DNA of 64,000 nucleotides from NCBI RefSeq assembly GCF_013374995.1, contig NZ_CP056030.1, positions 4,682,501 to 4,746,500 on the forward strand, in the 5' to 3' direction. Under the pieces are notes generated by a model. That model was not told the origin of the DNA, made no database searches, and saw only the letters and a program-made list of their open reading frames with translations. The position numbers and the translations under genes were made by a program. The DNA is from Pseudomonas eucalypticola (lineage in GTDB: Bacteria; Pseudomonadota; Gammaproteobacteria; Pseudomonadales; Pseudomonadaceae). How positions within the stretch are numbered: position 1 is the stretch's first letter; the number at the start of each line of letters is the position of its first letter. This document shows positions 6,983-32,549 of the stretch, piece after piece.

Positions 6983-7011
6983 CTCGGTGCATGACAAGCA
7001 GAGAACTGAAT

Positions 7012-15410: not shown

Positions 15411-16666
15411 AGCCTCCGCGCAGTTCACGCCTTCATGTCGCCGCGCCACAGCGCTCGTTCCTGCTGCTGCAAGGGGTGAGTTCGCCGTTCTTCGCCAAAC
15501 TGGGCCAGGCGCTGCGCGCCGAGGGCCAGCGTGTGCGCAGTGTCACCTTCAACATGGGCGACCTGCTCTATGGCCGTGGTACGCGCAGCTTCTGCGCGGT
15601 GCCGCAGGCGCAACTGGACGATTACTACGCGCAGTGCTTCGCCGACCATGACATCACCGACGTGGTGCTGTTCGGCGACTGCCGCCCGGTGCACCAGCCC
15701 GCGGTGCGCCTGGCGCGCCAGCGTGGCATTCGCGTGCACGTGTTCGAGGAAGGCTACTTCCGCCCCTACTGGATCACCCTGGAACGCGATGGGGTGAACA
15801 ACCACTCGCGCCTGCCGCGGGACCCGCAGTGGTACCGCGAGGTGGGCAAGCACATTCCGCGCTACAAGAATGGCAACGAGTTCAAGCTGTCGTTCACCGC
15901 CCGCGCCTTTCACGACGTCATGTACCACGTGGGCGGTGCGCTGAACAAAGTGACCTTCCCCCACTATCGCACGCATGCGCCGTTCAACGCGGCGGTGGAA
16001 TACGCCGGGTTCATCCGCCACGGGCTGCGGCTGTTCCAGGCCAGCCAGCGTGACGCCGCGGTGATCGACCAGGTGGCGACCGAGCGCTACCCCACCTTCC
16101 TGTTGCCGCTGCAACTGGACAGTGACTCGCAGATCCGCGACCACTCGCCCTTCGCCAACATGACCGAAGTGCTGGACCACGTGATGACGTCGTTCGCCCG
16201 CCATGCGCCCGGCGACGCCCGCCTGGTGGTGAAGAACCACCCGCTCACGCCCGGCCTGGTGGACTACCACCGCATTACCCGCGAACGCGCCGCCCACTAC
16301 GGCATGGCCGACCGCGTGCATTTCCTGGAAACCGGGCACATGCCCACGCTGCTGTCGCACGTGGCCGGCGTGGTGACCATCAATAGCACGGTGGGCGGTT
16401 CGTCGCTGCTGCATCATCGCCCGACCTTCACCCTGGCCGACCCGATCTACAACCTCGAAGGCCTGACGCACCAGGGCAGCCTCGACGATTTCTGGCGCTG
16501 CCCGCAGGCCCCCGACAACACCCTGTTCCAGCGCTTTCGCAACACGGTCATCCACACCACCCAGGTCAACGGCGGTTTCTACACCCGCTGCGGCATCGAC
16601 ATGGCAGTCAGCAACTCACTGGAAGTGATGATGGCAAAAACTTCACGAATCGAACTCTACCTATGA
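15347..16666 (+). CDS. kpsS: Capsule linker Kdo transferase (KpsS type)
   Basis: A 439-residue protein with the KpsS features FLLLQGVSSPFFAKLG (about 31-46), HVFEEGYFRPYWIT (about 129-142), VVKNHPLTPG (about 291-300) and TINSTVGGSSLLHHRP (about 345-360). The AAGGAG at 15331-15336 supports ATG 15347, inside the end of kpsC. KpsS adds the first Kdo residue to the lipid acceptor. Here the acceptor may not be the lyso-phosphatidylglycerol of E. coli, given the lipid-forming genes that follow. It overlaps the next gene by four bases. Confidence 0.9.
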   Translation: MAASSPPLAPEFFETAIAAELKPPRSSRLHVAAPQRSFLLLQGVSSPFFAKLGQALRAEGQRVRSVTFNMGDLLYGRGTRSFCAVPQAQLDDYYAQCFADHDITDVVLFGDCRPVHQPAVRLARQRGIRVHVFEEGYFRPYWITLERDGVNNHSRLPRDPQWYREVGKHIPRYKNGNEFKLSFTARAFHDVMYHVGGALNKVTFPHYRTHAPFNAAVEYAGFIRHGLRLFQASQRDAAVIDQVATERYPTFLLPLQLDSDSQIRDHSPFANMTEVLDHVMTSFARHAPGDARLVVKNHPLTPGLVDYHRITRERAAHYGMADRVHFLETGHMPTLLSHVAGVVTINSTVGGSSLLHHRPTFTLADPIYNLEGLTHQGSLDDFWRCPQAPDNTLFQRFRNTVIHTTQVNGGFYTRCGIDMAVSNSLEVMMAKTSRIELYL

Positions 16667-17433
16667 CGCAATCCCCCCGCTGCATCCTCATCACCGGTGC
16701 CACTGGCGGCATCGGCGGCGCCCTGGCGCCCGCCTATGCTGCCCCCGGCGTGACCTTGATCCTGCAAGGCCGACGCACCGACCGCCTGGAAGAAATGGCC
16801 ACGCAATGCCGCGCCGCCGGCGCCCGTGTGCTGCTCAAGGCCCTGGACGTGCGTGACATCGAAGCCCTGCGCACCTGGGTTGCCGAAGTCAGCGCCGCCG
16901 AGCAGCCCGACCTGGTGGTCGTGGGTGCGGGCCTCAATACCGACATTGGCCCCCAGGGCGAAGGTGAGGTGTGGAGCAACACTCAAGCGCTGGTGGAAGT
17001 GAACGTGGTGGCCGCCATGGCCACGGTAGAAGCTGCGCTGCCGGCGATGCGCGCGCGACGCAGCGGGCAGATCGCGTTGTTCAGTTCCCTGGCGGGCTGG
17101 CGTGGCTTGCCCACCACGCCCAGCTACAGCGCCAGCAAGGCGGCGATGAAGGCCTATGGTGAAGCGATTCGCGACTGGCTGGCACCCGAGGGCGTGCGCG
17201 TCAACGTGATTGTGCCTGGTTACGTGGAATCGAAGATGTGCTTCGAGATGCCCGGGCCCAAGCCGTTCCTGTGGACGGGCGAGCGAGCCGCGGCGCGCAT
17301 TCGCCGCGGCCTGGCGGCCAACCAGGGGCGCATCAGCTTCCCGTTCCCGCTGGACCTGGGTTGCTGGCTGCTGGGGATAATCCCCCAGCGTCTTTCTTCT
17401 GTCATTTTGCGTTGGCTGGATTACGGTGCCTGA
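16663..17433 (+). CDS. Short-chain dehydrogenase/reductase in the capsule lipid operon
   Basis: A 256-residue NAD(P)-dependent reductase. The cofactor motif TGATGGIG is at residues 11-18, catalytic Ser at 141/142, and YSASK gives Tyr155 and Lys159. The C-terminus (about 226-250) is hydrophobic and could bind membrane or a lipid substrate. With a polyketide synthase and an alpha-oxoamine synthase at the same locus, the natural guess is reduction of the keto group of an alpha-amino ketone, as 3-ketosphinganine reductase does. It would correspond to WcbP of the Burkholderia capsule I locus. ATGA overlap with kpsS; its own stop lies inside the next gene. Confidence 0.75.
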   Translation: MTQSPRCILITGATGGIGGALAPAYAAPGVTLILQGRRTDRLEEMATQCRAAGARVLLKALDVRDIEALRTWVAEVSAAEQPDLVVVGAGLNTDIGPQGEGEVWSNTQALVEVNVVAAMATVEAALPAMRARRSGQIALFSSLAGWRGLPTTPSYSASKAAMKAYGEAIRDWLAPEGVRVNVIVPGYVESKMCFEMPGPKPFLWTGERAAARIRRGLAANQGRISFPFPLDLGCWLLGIIPQRLSSVILRWLDYGA

Positions 17434-18961
17434 TTTGTTCGCGTCCCCTCTTTTTGCCCTGGCGCTTGCCGGGCTGTTGCTGACCCTGGGCTTCGAAGCG
17501 CTACTGGTCCCCCGCCCGGGCCTGCGTCGCCCGTTGAGCAGTTGGCTGCTGCACGCCGGCAGTTGGCTGGTTTCGCTGGGGGTGCTGTACGCGCTCACCG
17601 GGCGCCCATGGTTCAGCACCGTGAACGCGCTGTGCGTATGGCTGCTGGTGGTGCTGGTCAGCAACGCCAAGTACCACTCGCTGCGTGAGCCCTTCGTGTG
17701 CGCCGACTTCGAGTATTTCAGCGATGCGGTGCGCTTCCCGCGCCTGTACTTGCCGTTCTTCGGCATCGGCAAGGCCATCGTCCTGGCGTTGGCGTTTGTC
17801 GCTTACCTGGGCTGCGGGCTGTACTTCGAGCCCCGCGCGCCGTTTGCCTTTTACGATGCCGGGCAGACGCTGCTGATCGGCGCCGCGCTGCTGGCCGGTG
17901 GCCGTCGTCGCCTGCCAGCGCCCAGCTTCGATGCCTCGGCGGACCTGCAGCGTTTCGGCCTGGTCAGTTGCCTGTGGAACTACTACGGCGCGGCGCGCCG
18001 GCCGGTGGATGTGAACGGCCTGGGCTCGCCCTTCACCGCCAGCCCGGCGCCTTCCGCCGCGCAACTGCCTGACCTGGTTTCGGTGCAGAGCGAATCGTTC
18101 TTCGACGTGCGCACCCTGTGGCCAGGCGTTCGCCCCCAGGTGCTGAGCACATTCGACCAGTTGCGTGCCGAAGCCGTGGCTCACGGGCCGCTGCAGGTAG
18201 CGGCGTGGGGCGCCAACACGGTACGCACCGAGTTCGCCTTCCTCAGCGGCATCGCTGGCGACCGCCTGGGCGTCCACCGTTTCAACCCCTACCGCCTGCT
18301 GGCGCGCAAAGGCGTGCCGAGCATTGCCATGCACCTCAAGCGCCAGGGCTACCGCACCGTGTGCATCCACCCCTACGACGGCTCGTTCTACGGCCGCGAC
18401 AAGGTGCTGCCGGCCCTGGGCTTCGACGAGTTCATTGACGTGCGCGCCTTCGACGATAGCCAGAAAGCCGGTCCTTTCATTGGCGACTGCGCGGTGGCCG
18501 AGAAGATCAACCAGTTGCTCAGTGAACCGGGCCGCACCCAACCCTTGTTCATCCATGCGGTGACCATGGAAAACCACGGCCCGCTGCACCTGGAACAGGT
18601 GCAGGCCGCCGAACTGGATACCTGGTTCGACCAGCCATTGGGCGATGGTATGCGCGACCTGGGCCCTTACCTGCGCCACATCGGCAACGCCGACCGTATG
18701 CTGGGCATGCTGCGCAGCCACCTGCTGACGCTGCCGCGCCCCACTGCCCTGTGCTTCTATGGCGACCACGTGCCTATCCTGCCGGATGTGTACACGGCCC
18801 TGGGCGCGCCCGTGGGCGACACTGAATACTTCATCTGGAGCAACCGCGGCCCTGGCACCACGCAGGCCCACGCGCTGCCCGTGCACGACCTTGCCAAGCT
18901 GTTCGTCGAGCGCGGCCAGGCCGCCGGCGAGACCAAGGCCGACTATGCCCAGGCTGTCTGA
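17426..18961 (+). CDS. Membrane-anchored LtaS/sulfatase-fold phosphotransferase
   Basis: A 511-residue protein (GTG start) with four hydrophobic segments in residues 5-155, then an alkaline-phosphatase-superfamily domain facing the periplasm. VQSESFFD (metal ligand Glu223), ANTVRTEF (Thr265, position of the LtaS nucleophile) and FYGDH (late Asp-His metal pair) are visible. LtaS/MdoB/OpgB relatives move glycerol phosphate or ethanolamine phosphate from phospholipid to an acceptor. It could decorate the capsule or its lipid end with a phospho-group. Its place after the SDR, overlapping by 8 bases, matches WcbQ in the Burkholderia locus as I recall it. Confidence 0.78.
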   Translation: MPDLFASPLFALALAGLLLTLGFEALLVPRPGLRRPLSSWLLHAGSWLVSLGVLYALTGRPWFSTVNALCVWLLVVLVSNAKYHSLREPFVCADFEYFSDAVRFPRLYLPFFGIGKAIVLALAFVAYLGCGLYFEPRAPFAFYDAGQTLLIGAALLAGGRRRLPAPSFDASADLQRFGLVSCLWNYYGAARRPVDVNGLGSPFTASPAPSAAQLPDLVSVQSESFFDVRTLWPGVRPQVLSTFDQLRAEAVAHGPLQVAAWGANTVRTEFAFLSGIAGDRLGVHRFNPYRLLARKGVPSIAMHLKRQGYRTVCIHPYDGSFYGRDKVLPALGFDEFIDVRAFDDSQKAGPFIGDCAVAEKINQLLSEPGRTQPLFIHAVTMENHGPLHLEQVQAAELDTWFDQPLGDGMRDLGPYLRHIGNADRMLGMLRSHLLTLPRPTALCFYGDHVPILPDVYTALGAPVGDTEYFIWSNRGPGTTQAHALPVHDLAKLFVERGQAAGETKADYAQAV

Positions 18962-19526
18962 GCCGTTGCGAATCGTGGCAGGCAATGAACTGGCCTTGCC
19001 CGATGAACAGCTGGCGCGCATGGTGGCACGCGGGCGGGGGTCCTTGCGGATGATCCTGGGCAACGACGCCTGCCGCTACCGCCTGCTGCACCAGAGCATC
19101 AACTGGGACCGGCTGCTGTTCGCCTTTCACGGTAACGAAGCGGTTGGCCATGCCAGTTTCAAGCATGGCGGGCGCGGGCCGTTTTCACCGCCAGGGCAGG
19201 CGTTCGTCGATGAGTTCGGGCGCTGCCGGGGCTGGCTGCGCTTTGCCCTGTACCGCTTCACCGAGTACCGTGAACGCCACCACGCGTTCTTCCTGTACGG
19301 CCTGCGTGTCGGCAAGGAACACCGCCGCCAAGGCATCGCCACGGCGCTGATCGAAGCCGTGTGCGCCCAGGCGCGCGCGCTGGGCGCCGACACGGTGGCG
19401 CTGGAAGTGCTGGGCCGCAACCGCGGTGCCCGGCAACTGTACCGGCGCAACGGTTTCCACCTGGCCAGCCGCTTGCCGCTGCCCGGCCTGCACGTGCTGG
19501 GCATGCGCCGCAGGCTGGCGCCATGA
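18945..19526 (+). CDS. GNAT-family N-acyltransferase
   Basis: A 193-residue protein with the GNAT core. The acetyl-CoA-binding loop is in GLRVGKEHRRQGIATALIEA (about 121-140, R/Q-x-x-G-x-A), and the tail has EVLGRNRGARQLYRRNGF (about 156-173). Start ATG 18945 lies 17 bases inside the upstream gene, with AAGG six bases before it. In an operon predicted to make a long-chain amine, an N-acyl or N-acetyl transfer to that amine is an attractive role but unproven. It overlaps the next gene by four bases. Confidence 0.75.
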   Translation: MPRLSEPLRIVAGNELALPDEQLARMVARGRGSLRMILGNDACRYRLLHQSINWDRLLFAFHGNEAVGHASFKHGGRGPFSPPGQAFVDEFGRCRGWLRFALYRFTEYRERHHAFFLYGLRVGKEHRRQGIATALIEAVCAQARALGADTVALEVLGRNRGARQLYRRNGFHLASRLPLPGLHVLGMRRRLAP

Positions 19527-21655
19527 GGCCACCGGTGATGCAACTCGACAGCCTGGTGCCGGGCGAAGGCTGGGTGGGCATCATGTCCCAGTGGGTGGCG
19601 TGGAAGGTGCTGCACCTGCCGCGCTTCCTCGAACCCGAAGGCCAACCGTTCTGGCTGTGGCGCCGCGGCGCACGTGCACCCAAAGGGCTGAAGGCCATCG
19701 CCGGCATCGGCTACAAGCGCTCTTCGGCCCGCGCACGGGTGCTGTGCGCGCGTTGGGGCCTGCCCTACATCGCCTTGGAAGACGGTTTCCTGCGTTCCTC
19801 TTCGCTGGGCGTGGAGGGCGACACGCCGATGTCCATGGTGGTCGACCCGATCGGCATTCACTACCTGGCGGACCGTCCTTCGCTGCTGGAAAACCTGTTG
19901 CAGGCGCCCGAGCAATTCGACCCGCAGGAACTGGCCACCGCCCAGGCGCTTATCGAGCTGATGCGCCAGACCGGCATCGGCAAGTACAACAATGCGCCCG
20001 ACCTTGCGGCGCAGCAGGTACCCGGCCGCGAGCGCCCGCTGGTGCTGGTGGTGGACCAGACCTACGGGGACTTCTCCATTCCCGGCGGCGGCCTGTGCGA
20101 AGCCGACTTCGTGCGTATGCTCGACTGCGCACTGGCGGAAAACCCTGACGCCGACGTGCGCGTGCGCATTCACCCCGACTGCCTGCGCGGGCACAAGAAA
20201 AGCTGCCTGCTGGACGCCGCCCGCGCCCGGGGCGTGGCGCTGGAAAGCCGCTCGGTGTCGTGGGCGTCGCTGGCTCGCCACGCCCGCCGGGTGTACGTGG
20301 GCACCAGCCAGGCCGGCCTTGAAGCGCTGATACTGGGCGTACCGGTAACCTGCTTCGGGCTGCCCTTCTATGCCGGCTGGGGGCTGACCGACGACCGCAT
20401 GCCCATCCCCCGTCGCCAGGCCCGGCCCACCCTTGGCCAACTGGTGGCGGCGGCCTATATCCGCTATTGCCGCTATGTCGACCCACTCACCGGCCAGCTC
20501 ACCGACGTACTGACGGTGGCGCGCCAATTGGCGCGGCAGAAAGCTCAGGACAGCGAGTTCGCCGGGCCCATCGTGGTGCTGGGCGTCAAGCGCCACAAAC
20601 AGCACAACGTGCGCCGGTTTCTCGGCAGCCGCTGGGGCCAGTTGCGCTTTGCCCAGGACAGCCCCGAGCTGCTTGGCCGCGTGGCCGAGGAAGGCGCACG
20701 GCTGGTGGTATGGGCCGGGCGCGAGCCGCCGGGGCTGAGCATGCGAGCGCAGGCGTACGGCGTGCCGCTGTGGCGCATCGAAGACGGTTTCCTGCGCTCC
20801 AGCGGGTTGGGCGCGCTGAACGCCCCGGCCATGTCGCTGGTGCTGGACCGCCGGGGTATCCATTTCGACCCCAGCACCGACAGCGACCTGTTCCGCTACC
20901 TGCAAGGCCGAGAGTATTCCCCCCAGGTGCTGGCTGAAGCCGCGCAACTGCGCGAGCGCATCGTCGCCAGCGGCGCCAGCAAGTACAACCTCAAGGGCGC
21001 GACCCCACGCCTGGGCGCCGCCACCGGCCAGCGCTGCATTCTGGTACCCGGCCAGGTCGAGGATGATGCTGCGGTACTGCGCAGCGGCCCGCAGCCGTGG
21101 AGCAACCTGCAACTGCTGCAGGCAGTGCGCCAGCGCGCGCCGGACGCCTTCATCGTCTACAAGCCGCACCCGGATGTGGAGGCCGGCAAGCGCGTGGGCG
21201 CCCTGGCCCGCGACCAGGTGCTGGCATTCGCTGACCAGATCATCGAGTACGGCGACATCGGCGCGCTGTACCCACAGGTCCAGGAACTGCACACGTTCAG
21301 TTCCACCGCTGGCTTCGAAGCGCTGTTGCGCGGCATTGCCGTGCACACCTACGGCCAACCGTTCTACGCGGGCTGGGGCCTGACCCACGACCGCCTGCGC
21401 ATGGCGCAACGCACCCGGCGTCTGCAGCTCGACGAACTGGTGGCCGCCACCCTGCTCGACTACGCACGCTACGCCGACTGCCAGCACCACCTGCCGTGCG
21501 ATGCCTGGCATGCCCTGGCGCAACTGCAACAACAGCCGCGCAATGCCTTGGCGCCGCGCATGCTGCCACCCTCTTTAGGGCACTACTTCCGGATAATGCT
21601 GGGCATGCGTCACCGCCTGGCTGCCCCTCAGTCACAGGACCCGACACATGCCTGA
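19523..21655 (+). CDS. Second KpsC-type glycosyltransferase
   Basis: A 710-residue paralogue of the KpsC at 13383, also with two halves: ALEDGFLRSSSLG (about 83-95) and RIEDGFLRSSGLG (about 420-432), VDPIGIHYLADRPS and LDRRGIHFDPSTDS, and PFYAGWGLT (about 281 and 612). The two KpsC proteins differ clearly, so this is not a recent duplication. It might add further Kdo residues of another linkage, or prime a different acceptor such as the lipid made by the neighbouring PKS. ATG 19523 overlaps the stop of the GNAT gene; ATG 19538 is the alternative. Confidence 0.82.
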   Translation: MRPPVMQLDSLVPGEGWVGIMSQWVAWKVLHLPRFLEPEGQPFWLWRRGARAPKGLKAIAGIGYKRSSARARVLCARWGLPYIALEDGFLRSSSLGVEGDTPMSMVVDPIGIHYLADRPSLLENLLQAPEQFDPQELATAQALIELMRQTGIGKYNNAPDLAAQQVPGRERPLVLVVDQTYGDFSIPGGGLCEADFVRMLDCALAENPDADVRVRIHPDCLRGHKKSCLLDAARARGVALESRSVSWASLARHARRVYVGTSQAGLEALILGVPVTCFGLPFYAGWGLTDDRMPIPRRQARPTLGQLVAAAYIRYCRYVDPLTGQLTDVLTVARQLARQKAQDSEFAGPIVVLGVKRHKQHNVRRFLGSRWGQLRFAQDSPELLGRVAEEGARLVVWAGREPPGLSMRAQAYGVPLWRIEDGFLRSSGLGALNAPAMSLVLDRRGIHFDPSTDSDLFRYLQGREYSPQVLAEAAQLRERIVASGASKYNLKGATPRLGAATGQRCILVPGQVEDDAAVLRSGPQPWSNLQLLQAVRQRAPDAFIVYKPHPDVEAGKRVGALARDQVLAFADQIIEYGDIGALYPQVQELHTFSSTAGFEALLRGIAVHTYGQPFYAGWGLTHDRLRMAQRTRRLQLDELVAATLLDYARYADCQHHLPCDAWHALAQLQQQPRNALAPRMLPPSLGHYFRIMLGMRHRLAAPQSQDPTHA

Positions 21656-22691
21656 GTTATTCAAGGCCCTGGGCCGCTACGCCAGCCTGCCCTGGCACTG
21701 CCTGCAACTGGCCACCCACGCCAAATCCTTTCAGGACAACCCGGTACTGGGCAGCGCGCGGCTCAACGCCATGGGCCTGCACGTGAAACGCCGGCAACTG
21801 GCGATGCACATGGCGCAATTGCGCCGCCGTCAGCTCGCCAGCCGCCTTGCGCCTGAAGACCTGGCCAGCTTCGAGCGCGACGGGTTCTTCCTGCGCGAGC
21901 AGTTCCTGCCGCCCGACCGCTTCAAGGCCCTGCGCGATGAAGTGCGCGAGTTGCGCACGCTGGGCTGGGAGATGCGCCAGGGCAAGGCCGTGACCCGGCG
22001 CCTGAGCCTGGACAGCGATGTGCTGGCAGCCAACCCGGGTTGCGAATCGGTGGTACGCGATGCGGGCATGCGCGACTTGATCAGTTATGCCTCGTCCAAT
22101 ACCGGGGGCATCACCTACCAATTGCAGGCGATTCTGGTGAACGCTGTGGCCGCGCCCATGGACCCGCAGACGTGCCTGCACGCGGACACCTTTCACCCCA
22201 CCGCCAAGGCCTGGTTGTTTCTGGATGACGTGGAAGATGACCAGGGGCCGTTCTGCTACGTGCCCGGTTCGCACCGCCTGACACCTGAACGCCTGGCGTG
22301 GGAGTACCAGAAGAGCCTGGGCGCGGCGACGTCCAGCGAGCAGATGCACCGCGAGGGCTCGTTCCGCATCAGCGAGGCGGAGCTGGCCAGCCTGGGCTTG
22401 CCAGCACCCCGGCGGTTCGCGGTACCGGCCAACACCCTGGTGGTAGCCGACACCTCGGGCTTCCATGCCCGCTGCGCCAGCGTGCAGTCCAGCCACCGGG
22501 TGGAGATCTACGCCAGCCTGCGGCGCAACCCGTTCCTGCCCTGGCGTGGCGCGCACCTGTTTGGCCTGCCACTGATTGCCGACCACCACATGCGCTGGGA
22601 CATCCGTTTGAAGCAGTGGATGGGCTTTGCCCAGCGCAGCCATTGGAAGTTCCTCGACCGGCTCAACGCCTACGACCCTTCCAACCTGTGA
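21648..22691 (+). CDS. Phytanoyl-CoA dioxygenase-like Fe(II)/2-oxoglutarate enzyme
   Basis: A 347-residue protein with the iron triad His178-x-Asp180 (LHADTFHPT) and a distal His273 (SGFHARCA), and an arginine (Arg284 in HRVEIY) for 2-oxoglutarate. PhyH enzymes hydroxylate fatty-acyl or small-molecule substrates. As the last gene of the kpsC operon and convergent with the PKS operon, it most likely hydroxylates the polyketide or amino-lipid chain, as comparable oxygenases do in fumonisin biosynthesis. It overlaps the second kpsC by 8 bases. Only 18 bases separate its stop from the end of the opposing oxoamine synthase gene. Confidence 0.78.
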   Translation: MPELFKALGRYASLPWHCLQLATHAKSFQDNPVLGSARLNAMGLHVKRRQLAMHMAQLRRRQLASRLAPEDLASFERDGFFLREQFLPPDRFKALRDEVRELRTLGWEMRQGKAVTRRLSLDSDVLAANPGCESVVRDAGMRDLISYASSNTGGITYQLQAILVNAVAAPMDPQTCLHADTFHPTAKAWLFLDDVEDDQGPFCYVPGSHRLTPERLAWEYQKSLGAATSSEQMHREGSFRISEAELASLGLPAPRRFAVPANTLVVADTSGFHARCASVQSSHRVEIYASLRRNPFLPWRGAHLFGLPLIADHHMRWDIRLKQWMGFAQRSHWKFLDRLNAYDPSNL

Positions 22692-22700
22692 CGCTGGGCA

Positions 22701-22722
22701 GGCGCGCCATTACAGGCGCGCC
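22701..22722. other. GGCGCGCC inverted repeat at a convergent junction
   Basis: Two GGCGCGCC octamers (22701-22708, 22715-22722) separated by six bases can form a strong hairpin. It spans the stop codon of the oxoamine synthase gene and lies 10 bases past the dioxygenase gene. It has no T-run on either side, so any terminator function would be unconventional. Confidence 0.4.
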
Positions 22723-24065
22723 AGCTCTCGGGCTACCAGGGCCACCGTGTCGGCGATCTGCTGCTCGGAATGCAGGCATGACACGAAGAAGCGCACCCGC
22801 GCTGCCTTTTCCGGCACCGCTGGGTACAGGATCGGCTGCGCGTTGACGCCGTGCTGGAATAGCGCCGCCGACAGCTGGGTGGCCTTCAGCGAGCTGCCGG
22901 TGATCACCGGAATGACCGCCAGGCCGGTGCTGGTGGCCACATCCAGGCCGGCGGCGCGGGCCAGGCGCAGGAACTGCTCACCCCGCGCCTGCACTGCCGC
23001 CACGGGTGACGGATCGGCCTTCATGCAGCGCAGCGCGGCCAGGGCAGCGGCCGCCACCGGTGGCGGCATGCCCACGCTGTAGAGAAAGCCGGGCGCCAGG
23101 AACTTCAGGTGTTCCACCAACGCCGCCTCGCCGGCGATGTAGCCACCGCAACTGGACAGGGTTTTGCTCAGGGTACCCATCCACAGGTCCACGGCATCGC
23201 CAGGCAGGCCGAAGTGCTCACGGATGCCCTTGCCGGTGGCGCCCATCACGCCCAGGGAATGCGCCTCGTCGACCATCAGGAACACCCGGTGGCGCTGCTT
23301 GAGCGCCACGAAACGCGGCAGGTCGGGGTAGTCGCCGTCCATGCTGTAGATACCTTCGAGCACCACCAGCACCCGCTCGAAATGCTGGCGCTGTTCGCCC
23401 AGCAGGCGGTCCAGCGCCTGCCAATCGTTGTGCGGGAAGCTCAGGCGCCGGGCGCCGGACAGCTGGATGCCCTGCAGCACGCTGTTGTGAATCAGCTCAT
23501 CATGCACGATCAGGTCACGCGGGCCGAACAGGTACCCCAGGGTGGTGACGTTGGTGGCATGGCCACTGACGAAAGTGATGGCGTCCTCCACGTCATACAG
23601 CTCGGCCAGTTCGCGCTCCAGCTCACGGTGCAACGGGCGGTCACCGGACACCGGTCGGCTGGCCGACACCGAGGTGCCGTACTGGTCGATGGCCTGCTTG
23701 GCCGCGTCAACCACCTGCGGGTGGTTGGCGTAGCCCAGGTAGTTGTAGCTGGCGAAGTTCACGTAGGCCTGGCCACCAATGGTGGTGCTAGCTTCCGCGC
23801 GCCCTTCGTGCAACTTGAAGAACGGGTTGCTCAGGCCCATCTGCGCGGCGCTCTGCATCATCACGCGCAGCTGCTGGTAACCGGGGTGCAGGGCGAAGCG
23901 GTAGAACTGCTCCGGCACCTTGGCGGCGGCCTGCTGCGCAGCTTCCAGGGACGGCGCCGGCTCAGCGCCGGCCTGGCGCAGGCGGCGTTCGCGCGCCTGC
24001 TGAATCAGTTGATCCTTGGCGGAGCCGGCCAGGCCGGCCGGGGGGGTGCGGTTCATGGTAGCCAT
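22710..24065 (-). CDS. Alpha-oxoamine synthase (AONS/serine-palmitoyltransferase family)
   Basis: A 451-residue PLP enzyme. Lys301 in GTLSKTLSSCGGY binds PLP, DEAHS (266-270) supplies Asp and His contacts, and GHATN (168-172) and the ASYNYLGY segment (105-112) are typical of AONS, KBL and SPT. It is about 60 residues longer than BioF at the N-terminus. The enzyme condenses an acyl thioester with an amino acid, losing CO2. It starts one base after the PKS stop codon, so its acyl donor is presumably the PKS product. ATG 24056 is an alternative start. There are no biotin genes nearby, so this is unlikely to be BioF. Probable counterpart of Burkholderia WcbT. Confidence 0.85.
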   Translation of the reverse strand: MATMNRTPPAGLAGSAKDQLIQQARERRLRQAGAEPAPSLEAAQQAAAKVPEQFYRFALHPGYQQLRVMMQSAAQMGLSNPFFKLHEGRAEASTTIGGQAYVNFASYNYLGYANHPQVVDAAKQAIDQYGTSVSASRPVSGDRPLHRELERELAELYDVEDAITFVSGHATNVTTLGYLFGPRDLIVHDELIHNSVLQGIQLSGARRLSFPHNDWQALDRLLGEQRQHFERVLVVLEGIYSMDGDYPDLPRFVALKQRHRVFLMVDEAHSLGVMGATGKGIREHFGLPGDAVDLWMGTLSKTLSSCGGYIAGEAALVEHLKFLAPGFLYSVGMPPPVAAAALAALRCMKADPSPVAAVQARGEQFLRLARAAGLDVATSTGLAVIPVITGSSLKATQLSAALFQHGVNAQPILYPAVPEKAARVRFFVSCLHSEQQIADTVALVARELARL

Positions 24066-24066
24066 C

Positions 24067-27000
24067 TCAATTGATCAACCGGGTGGAGGCAGCGCCATCG
24101 AGTTGCGCCAGGTCCTGCGCGCTCAGCTCGACGCCGTGGCGGGCCAGGGTGTTCTTCGCCAGGGCCTGCTGCTCGTCGCTGTCCGACACTGCCTGGGTAC
24201 CGCGCAACAGCTCGATGATGCGGCGGGTAAGCTTGTCGATGGACGAGCTGTCGCTCAGTTCCATCACCGGCAGTCGAATGCCGAAGCGCTCTTCAACCGC
24301 CACCACCAGTTCCACGCTCATCAGCGAGTCCAGGCCCAGCTCCTGCAGGGGTCGGCTGGCATCCAGGCGGGCCACCGGCAAGCGCAGGATCTCGCTGATT
24401 TCCTGCTTGAGCATGTGCGCGAAGACCTCCGTCAGCGCTTCATCATCCAGCTCGGCCAACAGGCGCTGTACGTCGTCAGCGTCGCTGTCGTCCTCCTGTT
24501 CGCCGCCTTGCAGGCGCGCCAGCTCGGAGAACTTCGGCGCACCGGCGGTCGGCAGGAAGCGCGACAGCGCTTTCCAGTCGAGCTCCAGCACGCCCAGGCC
24601 CGAGCGCCCTTCCAGCAGCATGCCTTCTAGGTTGTCCAGCGCCTCGGCGGCTTGCAGCGCAGCGCCGCCCATGCGGCCTTGCAGGGCTTGCTTGATGTCC
24701 TGGTTGCGGGCCAGGAAACCGGCGTCGTCGATCGCCCCCCACAGCACGCTGGTGGCCGGCAGGCCGAGGGCGTGACGGTGGCGCGCCAAGGCTTCGAGCC
24801 AGTGGTTGGCGGCCACGTAGTTGGCCTGGCCAGGGTTGCCGAACAGGGTGGTGGCCGACGAGAACATCACGAAGAATTCCAGCGCCACGCCACGCGTCAG
24901 CTCATGCAGCAACTGCGCGCCCATGGCCTTGGGTTCCAGAACTCGTTCCAGTTGCTCGCGCTGCAGGTTGCGGATCAGCCCGTCATCGATGACGGTGGCG
25001 GCGTGCACCACGCCGCGTAGCGGCTGGGCGCGGCCGGCGATGTCGGCGATGACACTGGCCAACTGCGCGCGGTCAGTGATGTCACAGGCCACGGCGCGTA
25101 CGTCGATACCCTGCTCGCGCCAGGCGCGCAGGGCCGGTTGTGCCTCCTCGGTGGCCGGGCCGCGACGGCCCAGCAGCACCAGGTGGCGGGCGCCCTTGCT
25201 GACCAGCCACTGCGCGGTGCGCAGGCCAAAGCCGCCCAGGCCACCGGTGACCAGGTAGGTGCCTTGGGCATCCAGTTGCAGGCTGGCCGGTACCTGGGCC
25301 GTACGCTGGGCCACTTGCTGCAGCGGCGTGCGGTAGGTGACCACGATCTTGCCGATCTGGCGAGCCTGCTGCATGTAGCGGAAGGCTTCGACGACGTCGT
25401 TGGCATCGAATTCGCGGTACGGCAGCGGCGTCAGGGTGCCGTCATTGAACAGGTCCATCATCTGCGCGAACAAGCGACGCGTCAGCTCGGGGCGTTCGCT
25501 CATCAGCTGGTCGGCGTCGATGCCGAAGTAACTGATGTTGTTGCGGAACGGCCGCAGGCCGATCTTGGTGTTCTGGTAGAAGTCGCGCTTGCCCAGTTCC
25601 AGGAAGCGGCCAAACGGCTTGAGCACGCGGAAGTTGCGGTTGATGGCTTCACCGGCCAGGGAGTTGAGCACTACGTCGACGCCGCGGCCGCCCGTGATGG
25701 CCAGTACTTCATCGGCGTACGCCAGGGAACGCGAGTCGAACACATGCTCGACGCCCAGCAGGCGCAGGAAGTCGCGCTTCTCGTCACTACCCGCCGTGGC
25801 GTAGATCTGCGCCCCGCACCATTTGGCAATCTGCACGGCGGCGATGCCGACGCCACCGGCGGCGCCGTGGATCAGAATCTTCTCCCCCGGCTCCAGGCGT
25901 GCCAGGTGCTGCAAGGCGTAGAACACCGTGAAGAAGGTGCTGGGGATGGTGGCGGCCGCTTCGAAGGACATGCCTTCAGGGATGCGCGCCACGGCGTTGG
26001 CCTGGGTCACCAGGCGGTTGGCAAAGCTGCGCGGACCGAAACCGACCACCCGGTCGCCGGGCTGGAAGTCGCCCTGCACATCGCCACCCTTGCCCCGCAC
26101 CACGCCAGCAAATTCGAAGCCCAGCGTAGGCCCGGAGAAGCCGTTTTCAATGGCTTCATCCGACAGCAGGCCCAGCGCGTACATCACGTCGCGGAAGTTC
26201 AGGCCAGTGGCCTGCACGTCGATGTCCAGCTGGTCACTGGCGGCGCTCAACGGTGGCTGCACCTGCCAGCGCAGGTTGCGCAGTTGCCCCGGCTGATCGA
26301 AACCAAGGCTGACCACCGGTTGCTCGCCGTCCACCTGTGGCGGCCGCGCCGGTGACTGCAAACGCAGGCGTGGCACGAAGCGATACCCCTGGGCGTCGAC
26401 GGCCATTTCGGTTTCCGCGTCGGCCGCCAGGAGCACCGGCAGCAGCGCCGCCGCCGATGTATTGGCGGCCAGGTCCAGCAGACGCACGCGACAGGCCCCA
26501 CTTTCGTTGGCCAGCGTGCGGCCGAAGCCCCACAGGGCGGCGTCGGCGATGGCGTCCAGGGGTTGCTCGCCTGCCTGGGGATGCCAGGCATTGCTGGTCA
26601 GCAGCCAGCAGGTCGGGGCGATGCCCGCGGCCTCGCAGCCATGCACCAGCCGCGCCGCCAGCAGGCAGCGGTCGCTCTGGCCCGGCAGGCCCTGGCCACC
26701 GAACAGGCCGGCCAGCAACACAATATGATCGGTGCCGGGGTACACGGCACCTGTCTCGACGGCGTCGGCAGCCAGCAGCGACACGCCCTGCCCCGCGCCC
26801 TGCAATACCGTTTGCAGGGCTTGGCTCAGGGTGGCTTCGGGGCCTTGCGGGTCGGCAACCAGCAGCCATTGCTGGGCAGGTACCTGGGCGGCTGGTTGCG
26901 CGGCACGTGCCTGGGCCGCCTGGGCTACCAGCACGTAGCTGCCAGCGGCCATGCCTGGGGCCAGTTCCACGGGGGCGGCACAGGCCAGGCCATGGCGTTG

Positions 27001-30000
27001 CAGCTCTTGCTGCCAGAACGCCGGCCGTTGTTGTGCGCCCAGGTTGCCTTGCTCGGGCAGCGCCAGCCACCAGTCAGCGCAGGCGCCGAACAGGAAGTCG
27101 GCCCAGCGTGCCGGGTGCTGCGCCAACAGCACCAGCTGGCCGCCATCGGCCAGTACCGCGGCGCCCTGGCGTAGCCCCTGGCTGATACTGTCCAGGGCAG
27201 CCAGGTCCCCGGGCACCAGCACCAGGTCGAACACCGCGTTCAGCGCATCGCCGGGTACGCTGACGTGCACCTGGGCGAATTCGGCGTTGAGCAGCTCCCC
27301 GGCTTCGGCGTCGGCGCTGCGGTAGTGGTAGTCGATGCGGTCGAAGTCCAGCACCGGGCCTAGGCCCTGGGCCAGTGGTTGACCCTGCAGGCCGATTTCC
27401 AGTACCCGCAGGCGCTGGCCAGCGGCCAGGCCGTCGAGGCGCTGCGCCAGGGTGTCGAGCAATGCCTGAATCAGCGCCTGCTGGCCGGCGGCCCCCAGCA
27501 CGTGGCGCGCCAGGCCGGCGCGCGAGGTTTCGCGCGGCAGCAGGTGCTGCACGTCGCGCTCGCCGCGCAACAGCGCTGGTAAATGCAGGCCCACCTGGCC
27601 TACCGAGTGAATCAGTTGGAAGTGTTCCGGGTAGCCATGGAACAGCGCCTGCCAGATAGCCTGGCTGCCGGGACGCGGGCCTGGGTCGGCCAGGCGCCAG
27701 GTGTCGCCCTCGGCCAGCAGGCTGCCGTCGTCGCGGCCGTACTCCAGCAGCGATGCCAGCAAGGCCGCGGCCTGGGGCGCCTGGGCCACCACGGTTGGCA
27801 CATGCAAAGCGCCGCCGTGGCTGTCGACCAGGTCTTGCACGAAGCTGCTGCACAGGCTGTCCAGCAGCGGCTCCACCTCATCCACGTAGCGCTGGGCCAT
27901 GGCATCGTTGGCCAGTGCGCCCAGCCGCGCCTGCAACGCAGGGCTCAGGCTGTCGGCCGCCAGCGCCGGCGCAGGCATGCCCGGCAGCGGCTTGGCCACC
28001 GCCACGGTAGCGACCTGCTTGACGTCCTCGGAACGGTCACGGTGCAGACGCACGCCACGGAAGCGCGCGTTACTGATGCTGATGACGGCAGCACCGGTGC
28101 TGTCGTACAGCACGAAGTCGGCCAGAAGCGAGTGCTCGGAACGACGCACCAGGCGCACTTCGGCCAGGCACGGCGTCGAGGCCTGGCGGCTGAAGGCGAT
28201 GCGCCCCAGTTTCACCGGCACGAACGCCAGTGCGCCACGCTTGCGGCCTTCGCCTGCCAGCAGCTGGGTGATCAGCTGGAAGGCGCTGTCCAGCAGCGCC
28301 GGGTGCAGGTGCAGGGTACTCAGTTCGGCGGCGATGGTGGCCGGCACGCTGAGGCGCGCCAGCACCCGATGGCCGTCGATCCAGCCTTCTTCCACAGCCT
28401 GGTAGGCGGGGCCGTAGTTCAGGCCTACGGCACTAGTCAAGCACAGGTGAGCCTGACGGTCGAAGTCGGGTTCACGCGCAGGCAACTCAGGTGCGCGCGC
28501 CTCCAGCATCACACCGCGCGCCTCCCCCGGAGACCGGGCCACCACGTGGTGCACCCAGGCTTCGTTTTCGCCATGGTGGCGCGAACTGATGTGCAGGGTG
28601 CCGTCGCTGTCGTCAATGCGCACGCGGGTCTTGCGGCTGCCTTCGGCCCCCAGGATCAGCGGGTTGTGAATTTCCAGCTCTTCGATGTCGACGAACTCGC
28701 CCGGCTGGAATTGCAGGGCCGCCGCCAGCGCCAGTTCGGTAAAACCGGCACCCGGGAACAGCACGGCTTCACCGACCTTGTGGTCAGCCAGGGTGGGGAA
28801 CAAACGGGTGTCCAGACGGTTCTCCCACACCAGCGGGGTGTGGGGCAGGCCGTGGCCCAGGTAAGGGTGCACGCGCTTGCGCTGCAGCAGATCGGCGGTT
28901 TCGCTGGTGACCGGCAGCACGAAGCGTTCACCCTGCCAGGGGTAGGCCGGCAGCTGCACGAAGCGCCCGGCTACGGGGAAGGTATGGGCCAGTTGCGGCT
29001 CTACCCCGGCGATCAGCAGGCGCGCCAGGCTGCGGTCCACCAGCTGGGTGCTGTGGTTGTTGCGTTGCAGGGTGGCGATCACAGCGCCTTCGACGCCCTC
29101 AGCCAGCAGCGCATCGTTGACGTAGCTGCGCAGGATGGGGTGCGGGCCCACTTCCACGAACACGTTCAGGCCATCGGCGACCAGGCTTTGCACCGCTTGC
29201 TGGAACAGTACCGGCTTGCGGATGTTGTGCCACCAGTATTCGGCGCCCAGGCCTTCACCGCACAGGCGCTGGCCCGTCACGGTGGAATAGAAGGGAATGT
29301 CGCCGGCCGACGGTTTGATATCGGCCAGCGCCGCTACCACCTGCTCGGCGATACCGTCCATGGCCGGCGAGTGGAAGGCGTAGTCCAGCGCCAGGCGGCG
29401 GACAAAGATCTGGCGTTCGTTGAGCACTGCCTCGAACCGGCTGAGGTCGGCATCGGCGCCGGCCACGGTCGAGCCCTTGACGCTGTTTTCACCGGCAATG
29501 AACACCCGGCCGTGCAGCCCCAGTTCTTCGATCAACGCCAGGGTAGCGTCGGCCGGCAGGCCAACCGCCGACATCTGCCCGGTGCCACGCGTCAAACCCT
29601 GTAGGCGGCTGCGCTGGTAGATGATGTGCGTGGCGTCGGCCAGGCTGAGGGCGCCACAGGCCCAGCCGGCGGCGACTTCACCCACGCTGTGGCCCAACAC
29701 GGCCACGGGCTGTACGCCACGGCGCTGGAGCATGCGGGTCACCCCTACCTGCAGGGCGAACAGCGCTGGCTGGGCGATTTCGGTCAGTGCGTAGCGGCCT
29801 TCGCCGTTGTCACCGGCAAGTTCCGCACGCAGGGAATAGCCGGCCATGGGCTGGAAGATGGCGTCGATCTGGGCCACGGCCTCGCTGAAGTCCGGCTCGT
29901 CGAGCAGGGCCTTGCCCATGCCCTGCCACTGCGAACCGTTGCCGGAGTACACCAGCACCGGGCCGCTGGCCTGGTCGGGGGCGCGGCCGCTTTCCACCAG

Positions 30001-31545
30001 GGAGCTCAGCTCGCTCACCGAAGGGTCGGCGGCGAAGTCCACCAGGGCCTGGGCCATGGCTTGACGGTCGGCATCGATGACCACCAGGCGGTGGGGAAGC
30101 AGATCGCGGCGGTACAAAGCCTGGTAGGCGACGTCGTACAGCGCCGGTGGGGTGCCAGCGGTGAGGAATTCGGCCATCTGCCCGGCGGCCTGCGCCAGCG
30201 CGTCGCTGTCCTTGGCCGACAGCACCAGCGGCAACGCACGGTTTTCCACCGGCTGCGCGGCGGCAGGCGCGGCCACGTGGCTGCGCAGGATGACGTGGGC
30301 GTTGGCGCCCCCGAAACCGAACGAGTTCACCCCGACGACCAGCTCACCTTCAGGCTTCAACGCCAGGGTGTCGGTAACCACCTGCAAGTTGAGGTCGGCG
30401 AACGGGATAGTGGGGTTGAGCGTGGTGATGCCAATGGTGGCTGGCACTTCGCGATGCTGCAGGCAGTACAGCGCCTTCATCAGGCCCGCAGCGCCAGAAG
30501 CGGCTTCCAGGTGACCCATGTTGCTTTTCACCGAGCCGATCGGCAGTACCCGGCTGCGCCGCGCGCCCAGGGCTTCACCCAGTGCACGGGTTTCGATGGG
30601 GTCGCCGACCGCGGTGCCGGTGCCGTGGGCTTCCAGGTAGTCGAGCTGGTCGGGGTGGATACCGGCGTTGCCGTAGGCCTGGCGAATAAGGTCGGCCTGG
30701 GCGTCGGCGCTTGGCAGGGTCAGGCTGGATTTGCGCCCGTCGGTGTTGACGGCGCTACCTGCCACCACGGCCAGAATGTTGTCGCCGTCGGCCACCGCCA
30801 GATCGTAGGCCTTGAGCAGAAACAGGCCGGCGCCTTCGGAGCGCACATAGCCATCGCCGGATTCGTCGAAGGAGTGGCAGCGGCCAGTCGGCGACAACAT
30901 GGACGCCTTGGAGAAGATCAGGAAACCGAACGGGTGCAGGTGCAAGCTGATGCCGCCAGTGATCGCCTGGTCGATATCGCCGCTCTGGATGGCCTTGTGC
31001 GCTTGGTGGAATGCCACCAGGGACGAGGAGCAGGCGGTATCGACCGTCATGCTCGGGCCGCGCAGGTCGTAGAAGTACGATAACCGGTTGGCGGTGATGC
31101 TCGACGAGTTGCCCGTGGCGGTGCCCGCGTCGATCGCCGCCATGTCCTCGGTGAGCCGGTAGGCGTTGTCGACGCTGGCTACACCCAGGTAGACGCCGCA
31201 GTTGCTGCCACGCAGGCGCGAGGGTTTCACCCCGGCGTTTTCGAACAGCTCCCAGCCCATCTCCAGCAGAAAACGCTGCTGGGGATCCATGCTCGCCGCT
31301 TCGCGCGGGGAAATGCTGAAGAAACCGGCGTCGAAACGGGAAATGTCTCCCAGCGAGCCTGCCGCGAAGGTGTAGGCCGTACCCAGGTGCGCCTTGTCCG
31401 GGTGCAAGTACTCGTCATGCGACCAACGCGAGGCATCGGCCTGGGTTACCAGGTCCCGCCCCTGCTGGAGGTTCTGCCAGAACGTCTCGCGATCAGAACC
31501 CGGGAAGCGGAAAGAGGTACCGATGATTGCAACTTTTCTTAACAT
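24067..31545 (-). CDS. Highly reducing type I polyketide synthase, KS-AT-DH-(MT)-ER-KR-ACP
   Basis: About 2,490 residues from ATG 31545 (AAGGA 12 bases upstream; a start at 31584 would add 13). In order: KS with DTACSSS, HGTGT and the late His (Cys172, His307, His345); AT with GHSVGE (about 618) and YAFHS, suggesting malonyl; DH with LADHKVGEAVLFPG (about 920) and HPALLD; a methyltransferase-like region near 1380 with LEIGLQG lacking the SAM glycine motif; ER with HGAAGGVG (about 1895); KR with GGLGGFG (about 2095) and catalytic Tyr in QANY; ACP with LGLDSLMS (about 2405). No thioesterase. One module with a full reducing loop implies iterative use, giving a saturated or partly reduced chain passed to the adjacent oxoamine synthase. 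Resembles WcbR of Burkholderia. Confidence 0.9.
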   Translation of the reverse strand: MLRKVAIIGTSFRFPGSDRETFWQNLQQGRDLVTQADASRWSHDEYLHPDKAHLGTAYTFAAGSLGDISRFDAGFFSISPREAASMDPQQRFLLEMGWELFENAGVKPSRLRGSNCGVYLGVASVDNAYRLTEDMAAIDAGTATGNSSSITANRLSYFYDLRGPSMTVDTACSSSLVAFHQAHKAIQSGDIDQAITGGISLHLHPFGFLIFSKASMLSPTGRCHSFDESGDGYVRSEGAGLFLLKAYDLAVADGDNILAVVAGSAVNTDGRKSSLTLPSADAQADLIRQAYGNAGIHPDQLDYLEAHGTGTAVGDPIETRALGEALGARRSRVLPIGSVKSNMGHLEAASGAAGLMKALYCLQHREVPATIGITTLNPTIPFADLNLQVVTDTLALKPEGELVVGVNSFGFGGANAHVILRSHVAAPAAAQPVENRALPLVLSAKDSDALAQAAGQMAEFLTAGTPPALYDVAYQALYRRDLLPHRLVVIDADRQAMAQALVDFAADPSVSELSSLVESGRAPDQASGPVLVYSGNGSQWQGMGKALLDEPDFSEAVAQIDAIFQPMAGYSLRAELAGDNGEGRYALTEIAQPALFALQVGVTRMLQRRGVQPVAVLGHSVGEVAAGWACGALSLADATHIIYQRSRLQGLTRGTGQMSAVGLPADATLALIEELGLHGRVFIAGENSVKGSTVAGADADLSRFEAVLNERQIFVRRLALDYAFHSPAMDGIAEQVVAALADIKPSAGDIPFYSTVTGQRLCGEGLGAEYWWHNIRKPVLFQQAVQSLVADGLNVFVEVGPHPILRSYVNDALLAEGVEGAVIATLQRNNHSTQLVDRSLARLLIAGVEPQLAHTFPVAGRFVQLPAYPWQGERFVLPVTSETADLLQRKRVHPYLGHGLPHTPLVWENRLDTRLFPTLADHKVGEAVLFPGAGFTELALAAALQFQPGEFVDIEELEIHNPLILGAEGSRKTRVRIDDSDGTLHISSRHHGENEAWVHHVVARSPGEARGVMLEARAPELPAREPDFDRQAHLCLTSAVGLNYGPAYQAVEEGWIDGHRVLARLSVPATIAAELSTLHLHPALLDSAFQLITQLLAGEGRKRGALAFVPVKLGRIAFSRQASTPCLAEVRLVRRSEHSLLADFVLYDSTGAAVISISNARFRGVRLHRDRSEDVKQVATVAVAKPLPGMPAPALAADSLSPALQARLGALANDAMAQRYVDEVEPLLDSLCSSFVQDLVDSHGGALHVPTVVAQAPQAAALLASLLEYGRDDGSLLAEGDTWRLADPGPRPGSQAIWQALFHGYPEHFQLIHSVGQVGLHLPALLRGERDVQHLLPRETSRAGLARHVLGAAGQQALIQALLDTLAQRLDGLAAGQRLRVLEIGLQGQPLAQGLGPVLDFDRIDYHYRSADAEAGELLNAEFAQVHVSVPGDALNAVFDLVLVPGDLAALDSISQGLRQGAAVLADGGQLVLLAQHPARWADFLFGACADWWLALPEQGNLGAQQRPAFWQQELQRHGLACAAPVELAPGMAAGSYVLVAQAAQARAAQPAAQVPAQQWLLVADPQGPEATLSQALQTVLQGAGQGVSLLAADAVETGAVYPGTDHIVLLAGLFGGQGLPGQSDRCLLAARLVHGCEAAGIAPTCWLLTSNAWHPQAGEQPLDAIADAALWGFGRTLANESGACRVRLLDLAANTSAAALLPVLLAADAETEMAVDAQGYRFVPRLRLQSPARPPQVDGEQPVVSLGFDQPGQLRNLRWQVQPPLSAASDQLDIDVQATGLNFRDVMYALGLLSDEAIENGFSGPTLGFEFAGVVRGKGGDVQGDFQPGDRVVGFGPRSFANRLVTQANAVARIPEGMSFEAAATIPSTFFTVFYALQHLARLEPGEKILIHGAAGGVGIAAVQIAKWCGAQIYATAGSDEKRDFLRLLGVEHVFDSRSLAYADEVLAITGGRGVDVVLNSLAGEAINRNFRVLKPFGRFLELGKRDFYQNTKIGLRPFRNNISYFGIDADQLMSERPELTRRLFAQMMDLFNDGTLTPLPYREFDANDVVEAFRYMQQARQIGKIVVTYRTPLQQVAQRTAQVPASLQLDAQGTYLVTGGLGGFGLRTAQWLVSKGARHLVLLGRRGPATEEAQPALRAWREQGIDVRAVACDITDRAQLASVIADIAGRAQPLRGVVHAATVIDDGLIRNLQREQLERVLEPKAMGAQLLHELTRGVALEFFVMFSSATTLFGNPGQANYVAANHWLEALARHRHALGLPATSVLWGAIDDAGFLARNQDIKQALQGRMGGAALQAAEALDNLEGMLLEGRSGLGVLELDWKALSRFLPTAGAPKFSELARLQGGEQEDDSDADDVQRLLAELDDEALTEVFAHMLKQEISEILRLPVARLDASRPLQELGLDSLMSVELVVAVEERFGIRLPVMELSDSSSIDKLTRRIIELLRGTQAVSDSDEQQALAKNTLARHGVELSAQDLAQLDGAASTRLIN

Positions 31546-31903: not shown

Positions 31904-31979
<76 letters not shown>

Positions 31980-32174
31980 AAAAGACAACTAACTGAGCAG
32001 CTATCTTATTGAAATCGTTGATATTTCATCAACGTTTCGATGGGGCAGATTTTGAATCCATTTGGATTGTTTGGCAAGCCCTTTTTGAAAATATTTTTCA
32101 AATTCATGCATTTAGCGCGTTTCGTCTAGCCCGGGACCGCGGCGAATACCGCCCCCGCGCAAATCACGCACACA

Positions 32175-32201: not shown

Positions 32202-32212
32202 CTTGATGAATA

Positions 32213-32288
<76 letters not shown>

Positions 32289-32291
32289 AAA

Positions 32292-32471: not shown

Positions 32472-32547
<76 letters not shown>

Positions 32548-32549
32548 AT

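Follow-up and report, generated by a model that had tools for sequence, protein, structure and literature searches.

Organization of the locus

The window analysed here is a stretch of 64,000 nucleotides from Pseudomonas eucalypticola (NCBI RefSeq assembly GCF_013374995.1, contig NZ_CP056030.1, positions 4,682,501 to 4,746,500 of the forward strand; positions below are those of the window). Beside capsule genes it carries genes for a polyketide synthase (PKS) and an alpha-oxoamine synthase (AOS), which may together provide a sphingolipid anchor for the capsule. The host genome is 6.4 Mb in two contigs, and the closest named relatives of the AOS found by sequence search are from Pseudomonas.

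A plus-strand row, its gene ends overlapping, converges on the minus-strand PKS-AOS pair (Table 1). By Pfam the row reads KpsC, KpsS, a short-chain dehydrogenase/reductase (SDR), an LtaS-like protein, a GNAT acyltransferase, a further KpsC and a PhyH-type dioxygenase. An earlier description made from the letters alone (the sequence-only reading) had placed the SDR, GNAT, PhyH and LtaS-like genes next to KpsC and KpsS; its coordinates and gene assignments agree with ours, and the presence of two KpsC genes is a detail that it lacked. For the Pfam searches the GNAT query started 4 residues past the ATG and that of the second KpsC one residue before it. In an NCBIfam scan of the eight module proteins other than the PKS, none of the matches listed (for the SDR, the best 25 of 200 families) reached its cut-off.

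KpsS, a two-domain KpsC, KpsMT and an SLBB exporter are all present, as in capsules of the KpsC/KpsS ABC-transporter type, and this is probably a Pseudomonas ABC-transporter capsule locus. A search of the whole genome for PF05159 (E <= 0.001) gave 7 matched stretches, all at this locus. Since it holds the only such genes found in the genome, its single KpsS is likely to be the capsule primer.

Table 1. Features of the capsule locus and the associated lipid module.
Feature	Position	Strand	Basis
KpsC 1, two-domain beta-Kdo (3-deoxy-D-manno-oct-2-ulosonic acid) transferase	13383..15410	+	PF05159; 44% to E. coli UTI89 KpsC
KpsS, first Kdo transferase	15347..16666	+	PF05159; 38% to UTI89 KpsS; PKS-AOS-associated clade
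SDR, proposed 3-ketosphinganine reductase (RkpH/SgaC role)	16663..17433	+	adh_short
LtaS-like phosphoglycerol transferase (RkpI-position homologue)	17426..18961	+	PF00884 sulfatase superfamily
GNAT acyltransferase, accessory, possible amine modification	18945..19526	+	Acetyltransf_1
KpsC 2	19523..21655	+	PF05159; 43% to KpsC 1
PhyH-type dioxygenase, accessory	21648..22691	+	PF05721
AOS, RkpG/SgaB role, proposed serine acyltransferase	22710..24065	-	Aminotran_1_2
Iterative highly reducing PKS, RkpA/WcbR/SgaA role	24067..31545	-	KS-AT-DH-(degenerate methyltransferase)-ER-KR-ACP
KpsM-like permease	487-1284	+	ABC2_membrane; 34% identity to the permease encoded at kps in E. coli UTI89
KpsT-like ATPase	1298-1951	+	ABC_tran
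KpsE-like protein	1961-3100	+	No match in Pfam; name based on position and our reading
SLBB/Poly_export protein	Open reading frame 2919-4205	+	Pfam
Capsule polymer genes: GT2, Stealth, cytidylyltransferase	4389..8417	+	Pfam

The polyketide synthase and its oxoamine synthase

The PKS is a single protein of 2492 amino acids with the Pfam domains KS-AT-DH-ER-KR-ACP. Catalytic motifs were found for all six, DH and ER are separated by a degenerate methyltransferase-like insert that Pfam does not match, and the Pfam scan of the protein gave no thioesterase domain. One base separates its stop codon from the start of the AOS gene. The sequence-only reading had recognised this pair, with no thioesterase, as the chain-release logic of sphingoid synthesis. 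A precedent of the same type, a single-module reducing PKS lacking a thioesterase with an AOS beside it, lends support to that view: the PfSgaAB pair of Pseudomonas fluorescens MYb115 was demonstrated in 2025 to produce C24, C26 and C28 sphinganines, with compounds 154 Da heavier proposed by mass to be phosphoglycerol sphingolipids without an N-acyl group, and its PfSgaB is stated to prefer serine almost exclusively over alanine and glycine (PMC12134224).

The relatives of the AOS in the PDB are KBL/BioF and serine palmitoyltransferase (SPT), and its Lys, Asp and His columns are invariant in 14 of 14 alignment rows. In the sample of the order to which the host belongs, the PKS adjoins the AOS in all 14 other AOS-bearing genomes, and in a scan of named genomes, for which the best 80 of 534 loci were taken, a PKS match occurs at 77. 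These figures exclude a chance pairing.

Distribution of the lipid and capsule genes

Among 244 genomes of the order, AOS was found in 15 (E <= 1e-80) and KpsS in 32 (E <= 1e-20); 12 carry both, 3 only AOS, 20 only KpsS and 209 neither (Fisher p 1.1e-9). Within Pseudomonas, AOS occurs in 18 of 398 genomes, including that of the window. Fifteen of the other 17 fall in a clade at 76-79% identity and two lie at 43-45%. The stretches fetched for these 15 loci contain KpsC, LtaS-like and GNAT genes in 11 cases, SDR in 9 and KpsS in 9. The remaining four comprise two loci truncated where their contigs end (L152, L157) and two true orphans, which are considered below.

Besides the PKS, the 80 scanned loci gave at least one Kps gene at 46, the LtaS-like gene at 30, SDR at 28 and KpsS at 27. 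All are lower bounds, as one flank is largely taken up by the PKS and contigs are often short. For example, three loci that are Halomonas kin by the AOS tree (L025-L027) were scored without KpsC/S, both of which lie just past the flank. Twenty control stretches, from hand-picked, non-random positions in three genomes, contained no Kps gene and 3 SDR genes.

A KpsS clade that forecasts the oxoamine synthase

In a KpsS tree, 38 rows from AOS-positive genomes lie on one side of a branch and 21 from AOS-negative genomes on the other (Shimodaira-Hasegawa-like approximate likelihood ratio test, 96). The tree calls for 1 change of AOS state, against a mean of 17.5 after shuffling, and 0 of 500 shuffles were as low. 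The AOS-positive rows span alpha-, beta- and gammaproteobacteria and are 38 of 51 such sequences, the near copies L046, L049, L077 and L094 and nine Pseudomonas sequences being omitted; the Nitrospira KpsS (L100) lies outside the extracted set. The AOS-negative rows are the 20 from the order and E. coli UTI89, and one of them, L231, is sister to the AOS-positive clade. A careful tree with 14 added rows retained a clade containing all 38 (support 100/94). On this sequence evidence, a single clade holds the KpsS of PKS-AOS carriers and separates it from all other KpsS in the sample, an observation that is new here. Residues separating the two groups, as candidates only, are T104, D105, W142, D190, Y219 and G330.

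The tree was also used to forecast the presence of AOS. Of 369 genomes searched in the class, 16 proved to carry KpsS; 14 of these were new and were placed in the tree before AOS was searched for: 6 fell inside the AOS-positive clade and 8 outside. AOS was then found in 5 of the 6 predicted positives (E <= 1e-149) and in 0 of the 8 predicted negatives (p 0.003), where the best match was about 1e-62, the level of other oxoamine synthases. The forecast was thus correct for 13 of 14 genomes. In one of them (G964) LtaS-KpsS-KpsC and PKS-AOS lie on separate contigs, so that the pairing is not explained by close linkage alone.

Genes that accompany the pair

We compared the KpsS loci of the order, 11 with AOS and 20 without, leaving out the genome of the window; three AOS-positive loci (G217, G130, G073) were completed by hand and a fourth (G207) was scored on its AOS contig alone. 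An SDR lies beside KpsS at 9 of 11 AOS-positive and 0 of 20 AOS-negative loci (p 2.7e-6). For an LtaS-like gene the counts are 4 of 11 and 0 of 20 (p 0.01). PhyH, by contrast, accompanies KpsC/KpsS at 3 of 11 loci with PKS-AOS and 4 of 20 without. From these counts the SDR and the LtaS-like gene track the lipid genes, unlike PhyH. No GNAT was seen at any of the 11 or of the 20 loci.

The SDR is proposed to act as a 3-ketosphinganine reductase, a substrate suggested by the presence of its gene alongside AOS. The nearest PDB sequences to the LtaS-like protein are LtaP (a lipoteichoic acid primase) and the phosphoglycerol transferase GacH. Residues E223, T265, H384, D447 and H448, which we take from LtaS to be the metal ligands and nucleophile, are kept in 48 of 48 alignment rows. 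An AlphaFold2 model (pLDDT, the per-residue confidence score, 90) has five N-terminal helices, read as transmembrane (TM), followed by an alpha/beta domain. A homologue occurs in 6 of the 244 genomes of the order (E <= 1e-10), five of which have both AOS and KpsS.

The sequence-only reading had also given the lipid an N-acyl group, added by the GNAT, and a hydroxyl group, added by PhyH. Neither step appears to belong to the common core: the GNAT is present at only 8 of the 80 scanned loci, and the distribution of PhyH led us to set it aside as a sphingoid hydroxylase, Kdo or another general capsule substrate being, we presume, at least as likely. The best PDB matches of the GNAT are aminoglycoside acetyltransferases (best E 5.8e-7), which are uninformative about its substrate. 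Pseudomonas may still make a lipid that is both N-acylated and hydroxylated, but this would lie outside the core. A saturated phosphoglycerol-sphinganine is a likelier product than an N-acylated amino-polyol.

Other genes that could act on the amine were noted at some other AOS loci. A formyltransferase (PF00551) is found at L033 (8431-9270), L029 (4996-5820) and L024 (13628-14227), loci with no LtaS match, where an N-formylated sphingoid is possible. An LpxC-like gene (PF03331) lies between PKS and AOS on two Burkholderiaceae plasmids, L039 (13901-14827) and L041 (10887-11801), and elsewhere in the locus at L024 (17398-18210). Judging from the occurrence of formyltransferase, LpxC-like and GNAT genes, the amine may be modified differently across lineages.

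Proposed route

We propose, with a probability of roughly 0.55, that the PKS, AOS, SDR and LtaS-like protein make a phosphoglycerol-sphinganine which is primed with Kdo by a dedicated KpsS and anchors the capsule. On its own ACP the PKS would iteratively assemble a very long, saturated acyl chain. Release would come through the AOS, whose decarboxylative condensation of this chain with serine would give 3-ketosphinganine; the SDR would reduce that to sphinganine. The LtaS-like enzyme would then move glycerol phosphate from phosphatidylglycerol (PG) onto the 1-hydroxyl. The product, having a single chain, a phosphate and a glycerol at its end, would look much like lyso-PG. The cognate KpsS would put the first Kdo on it, KpsC would add the linker and KpsMT would export the capsule on its sphingolipid anchor. 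From the genes we infer that the locus makes a lipid like that of PfSgaAB, that the LtaS-like step follows and that the lipid serves as anchor. The replacement of lyso-PG as anchor had already been suggested in the sequence-only reading, and the KpsS clade and the forecasts support it.

If this is true, one class of capsule would be anchored on a sphingolipid, a chemical identity would be given to the lipid carrier at rkp-1 and wcb, and PKS-made bacterial sphingolipids would gain a role at the cell surface. KpsS splits into sequence clades, which may predict the acceptor lipid. The testable question raised is whether a sphingoid base lies at the reducing end of these capsules. A wider proposition is that Proteobacteria in many lineages replace lyso-PG with a PKS-made phosphoglycerol-sphinganine, produced by a cytoplasm-facing LtaS relative and used by a dedicated KpsS, and that the P. 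fluorescens sphingolipids and the rkp-1/wcb lipid are this same anchor. This we hold more tentatively, at a little short of even odds.

Alternative explanations

Several observations weigh against the proposed route. AOS occurs without KpsS in 3 of the 15 AOS-bearing genomes of the order (G066, G098, G214), and stretches of about 60 kb at the Pseudomonas orphans L161 and L162 hold a PKS-AOS pair but no match for KpsC, KpsS, LtaS or SDR, although one KpsT-type match lies near L161; these genes can therefore occur without this capsule system. Only 46 of the 80 scanned loci showed a Kps gene, although this is a lower bound. In the AOS tree, rows linked to a capsule are interspersed with unlinked ones (23 changes against 37.5 after shuffling), and a separate clade is made up of five distant rows that lack Kps genes. 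The failed forecast (G946) has KpsC, KpsS, SDR and the LtaS-like gene on one 13-kb contig with no AOS; a search with the N-terminal third found no PKS there, the only match nearby being a partial one at 35%. No family in the order sample has both AOS states among its KpsS carriers, and the KpsS clade could in part reflect the shared descent of a cassette. In B. pseudomallei, deletion of a region including wcbR is reported to have lowered but not abolished capsule (PMC7858667). No LtaS homologue was found (E <= 1e-10) in 7 of the 12 genomes of the order with both AOS and KpsS.

A further difficulty concerns membrane topology, since LtaS acts outside the membrane and KpsS inside. A catalytic domain of the LtaS-like protein facing the cytoplasm would resolve this mismatch, and the distribution of charged residues gives hints of such an inverted topology. 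When Lys and Arg are counted around the helices of the model, by a crude rule that omits the TM3-4 loop and depends on uncertain start codons, catalytic-side loops carry more of these residues than the remaining loops in all 17 complete rows of 25. Counted more coarsely, 27 of 30 relatives with five helices are skewed in the same way and 3 are reversed, 18 of the 48 relatives being left out as not giving five helices. The protein of the window itself has four helices in this count and the opposite sign (2 vs 8), because its fifth helix is missed. Three Gram-positive relatives, from three of four fetched loci (L300 omitted), have no clear skew (7 vs 6, 6 vs 8, 12 vs 11).

The orphan pairs and the AOS genomes without KpsS would fit a sphingolipid that stays free in the membrane or is secreted as a metabolite, in which case the capsule genes would be mere neighbours and the capsule would stand on ordinary (lyso)PG. 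This would also suit the reported correlation between P. fluorescens sphinganines and survival of the infected nematode host (PMC12134224) and the statement in a 2025 review that the beta-Kdo/PG terminus is conserved in such capsules, Vi excepted (PMC12220298). It is the alternative we take most seriously. Nevertheless, it is unlikely in view of the KpsS clade, the 13 successful forecasts and the unlinked co-occurrence in G964, and review text assigns the rkp-1 region roles in both capsule export and the synthesis of a specific lipid carrier. That description would also suit a lipid that the capsule requires as an export carrier or co-factor without being covalently anchored on it. In support of such a carrier, Sinorhizobium meliloti rkp-1 mutants reportedly retain polysaccharide inside the cell. 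We regard it as rather doubtful, since KpsS touches the acceptor and a change of acceptor would account better for its specialisation.

The anchor could instead be the N-acylated, hydroxylated, ceramide-like lipid of the sequence-only reading. The GNAT and PhyH genes do lie within the row, the GNAT recurs at most of the Pseudomonas loci, and the formyltransferase or LpxC-like gene at some others could act on the amine; but the scarcity of the GNAT elsewhere, the lack of correlation between PhyH and AOS, and the masses of the P. fluorescens products, which point to no N-acyl group (PMC12134224), make this improbable. Finally, the LtaS-like enzyme might decorate the capsule polymer, rather than a lipid, with glycerol phosphate, as the neighbouring polymer genes suggest phosphodiester linkages and LtaP and GacH, nearest in the PDB, act on polymers or glycans. 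This is highly improbable, given that none of the 20 AOS-negative KpsS loci has an LtaS-like match and that the enzyme is encoded at Sinorhizobium and Shinella loci, whose polymers differ. A phosphoglycerol-sphinganine acceptor remains our preferred explanation.

Other features of the window and variant loci

At the capsule polymer genes (4389-8417) a CDP-glycerol glycerophosphotransferase match falls below its Pfam family cut-off, and the set suggests a polymer containing phosphodiesters. The GC content of 2-kb windows is 51-54% here, against 64-70% across 14-32 kb. Genes at 8556-10431 (minus strand), where GC content is as low as 51%, encode a protein of the GSCFA family and a neighbour that Pfam does not match. 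Directly upstream of the PKS is a tRNA array (three tRNA-Gly, two tRNA-Glu; 31904-32625, minus strand), while a tRNA-Ser predicted by ARAGORN at 25720-25791 falls within the PKS gene and is probably false.

Some Pseudomonas loci depart from this gene order. Two from Pseudomonas paraversuta (L148, L044) have an internal deletion, at about 13.6-15.8 kb of L148, which leaves KpsS and SDR unmatched and the LtaS-like gene and one KpsC partial, with PKS and AOS nearly whole. At L154 a region at about 9.8-15.5 kb, with open reading frames read as a transporter and oxygenase-like, separates AOS from PhyH.

Comparison with known systems

The gene set is of a known kind, an rkp-1-type module. At the rkp-1 locus of S. 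meliloti (pSymB, L040) PKS, AOS, SDR, LtaS-like and KpsS genes stand in a row as here; we take these, by position, to be rkpA, G, H, I and J. Identities to the window are 35% for the PKS over nearly its full length, 51% for the AOS and 28% for the LtaS-like protein. The window differs in its extra GNAT and PhyH genes, its two KpsC genes and the convergent orientation of PKS-AOS. As the review text already states that rkp-1 provides a specific lipid carrier, a dedicated capsule lipid is not a new idea.

Capsule clusters had also been recognised as a setting for WcbR/RkpA-type PKSs by 2013 (PMC3908369). Five Burkholderiaceae loci have LtaS, PKS, LpxC-like and AOS genes in a row, four of the five with a GNAT as well; in this arrangement the LpxC-like gene lies between PKS and AOS, whereas the module of the window has none. 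In the group 2 capsule of E. coli, KpsC and KpsS are described as acting on PG (PMC11041684). E. coli UTI89 resembles the window in its KpsC, KpsS and KpsM-type permease, but the 25 kb around kps is annotated without PKS, AOS, SDR or LtaS-like genes and its KpsS lies outside the PKS-AOS clade. An annotated cluster of spt, acyl carrier protein and fatty acyl-AMP ligase genes was noted about 30 kb from kps in that genome (L256, 24177-28264).

The SPT of Caulobacter and other Rhodobacteria condenses serine with an acyl thioester, as is proposed for the AOS of the window; that system is described as using a stand-alone acyl carrier protein and an acyl-CoA synthetase (PMC9386255), whereas the chain of the window would be held on the ACP of the PKS itself. 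We rejected the canonical ceramide pathway because neither a stand-alone acyl carrier protein nor an acyl-CoA synthetase is present among the nine module proteins.

Also similar to the window is PfSgaAB(C), with its iterative PKS, AOS and SDR in Pseudomonas, a likeness drawn through roles and locus-tag spacing only. The tags of PfSgaA, B and C (RS19805, RS19800, RS19775) have the same offsets as those of PKS, AOS and SDR (RS26445, RS26440, RS26415) on a plasmid of Pseudomonas sp. TMW 2.1634 (L038), where the genes between AOS and SDR are PhyH, KpsC, GNAT and LtaS. PhyH is missing at some of the 11 Pseudomonas loci, which shifts the spacing by one gene, and we have not kept the spacing as proof of synteny in MYb115. 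We infer from it, nonetheless, that the sga cluster may be a capsule locus. The main text of the report presents sga as a secondary-metabolite cluster and does not contain the strings 'capsul', 'rkp' or 'wcb' (PMC12134224). Among the matches listed in a search of the open-access literature, no paper joined PKS-AOS sphingolipids to capsule anchors. The module itself is thus of an established type, and the proposed link between PKS-made sphingolipids and capsule anchoring, which can be tested, is its new element.

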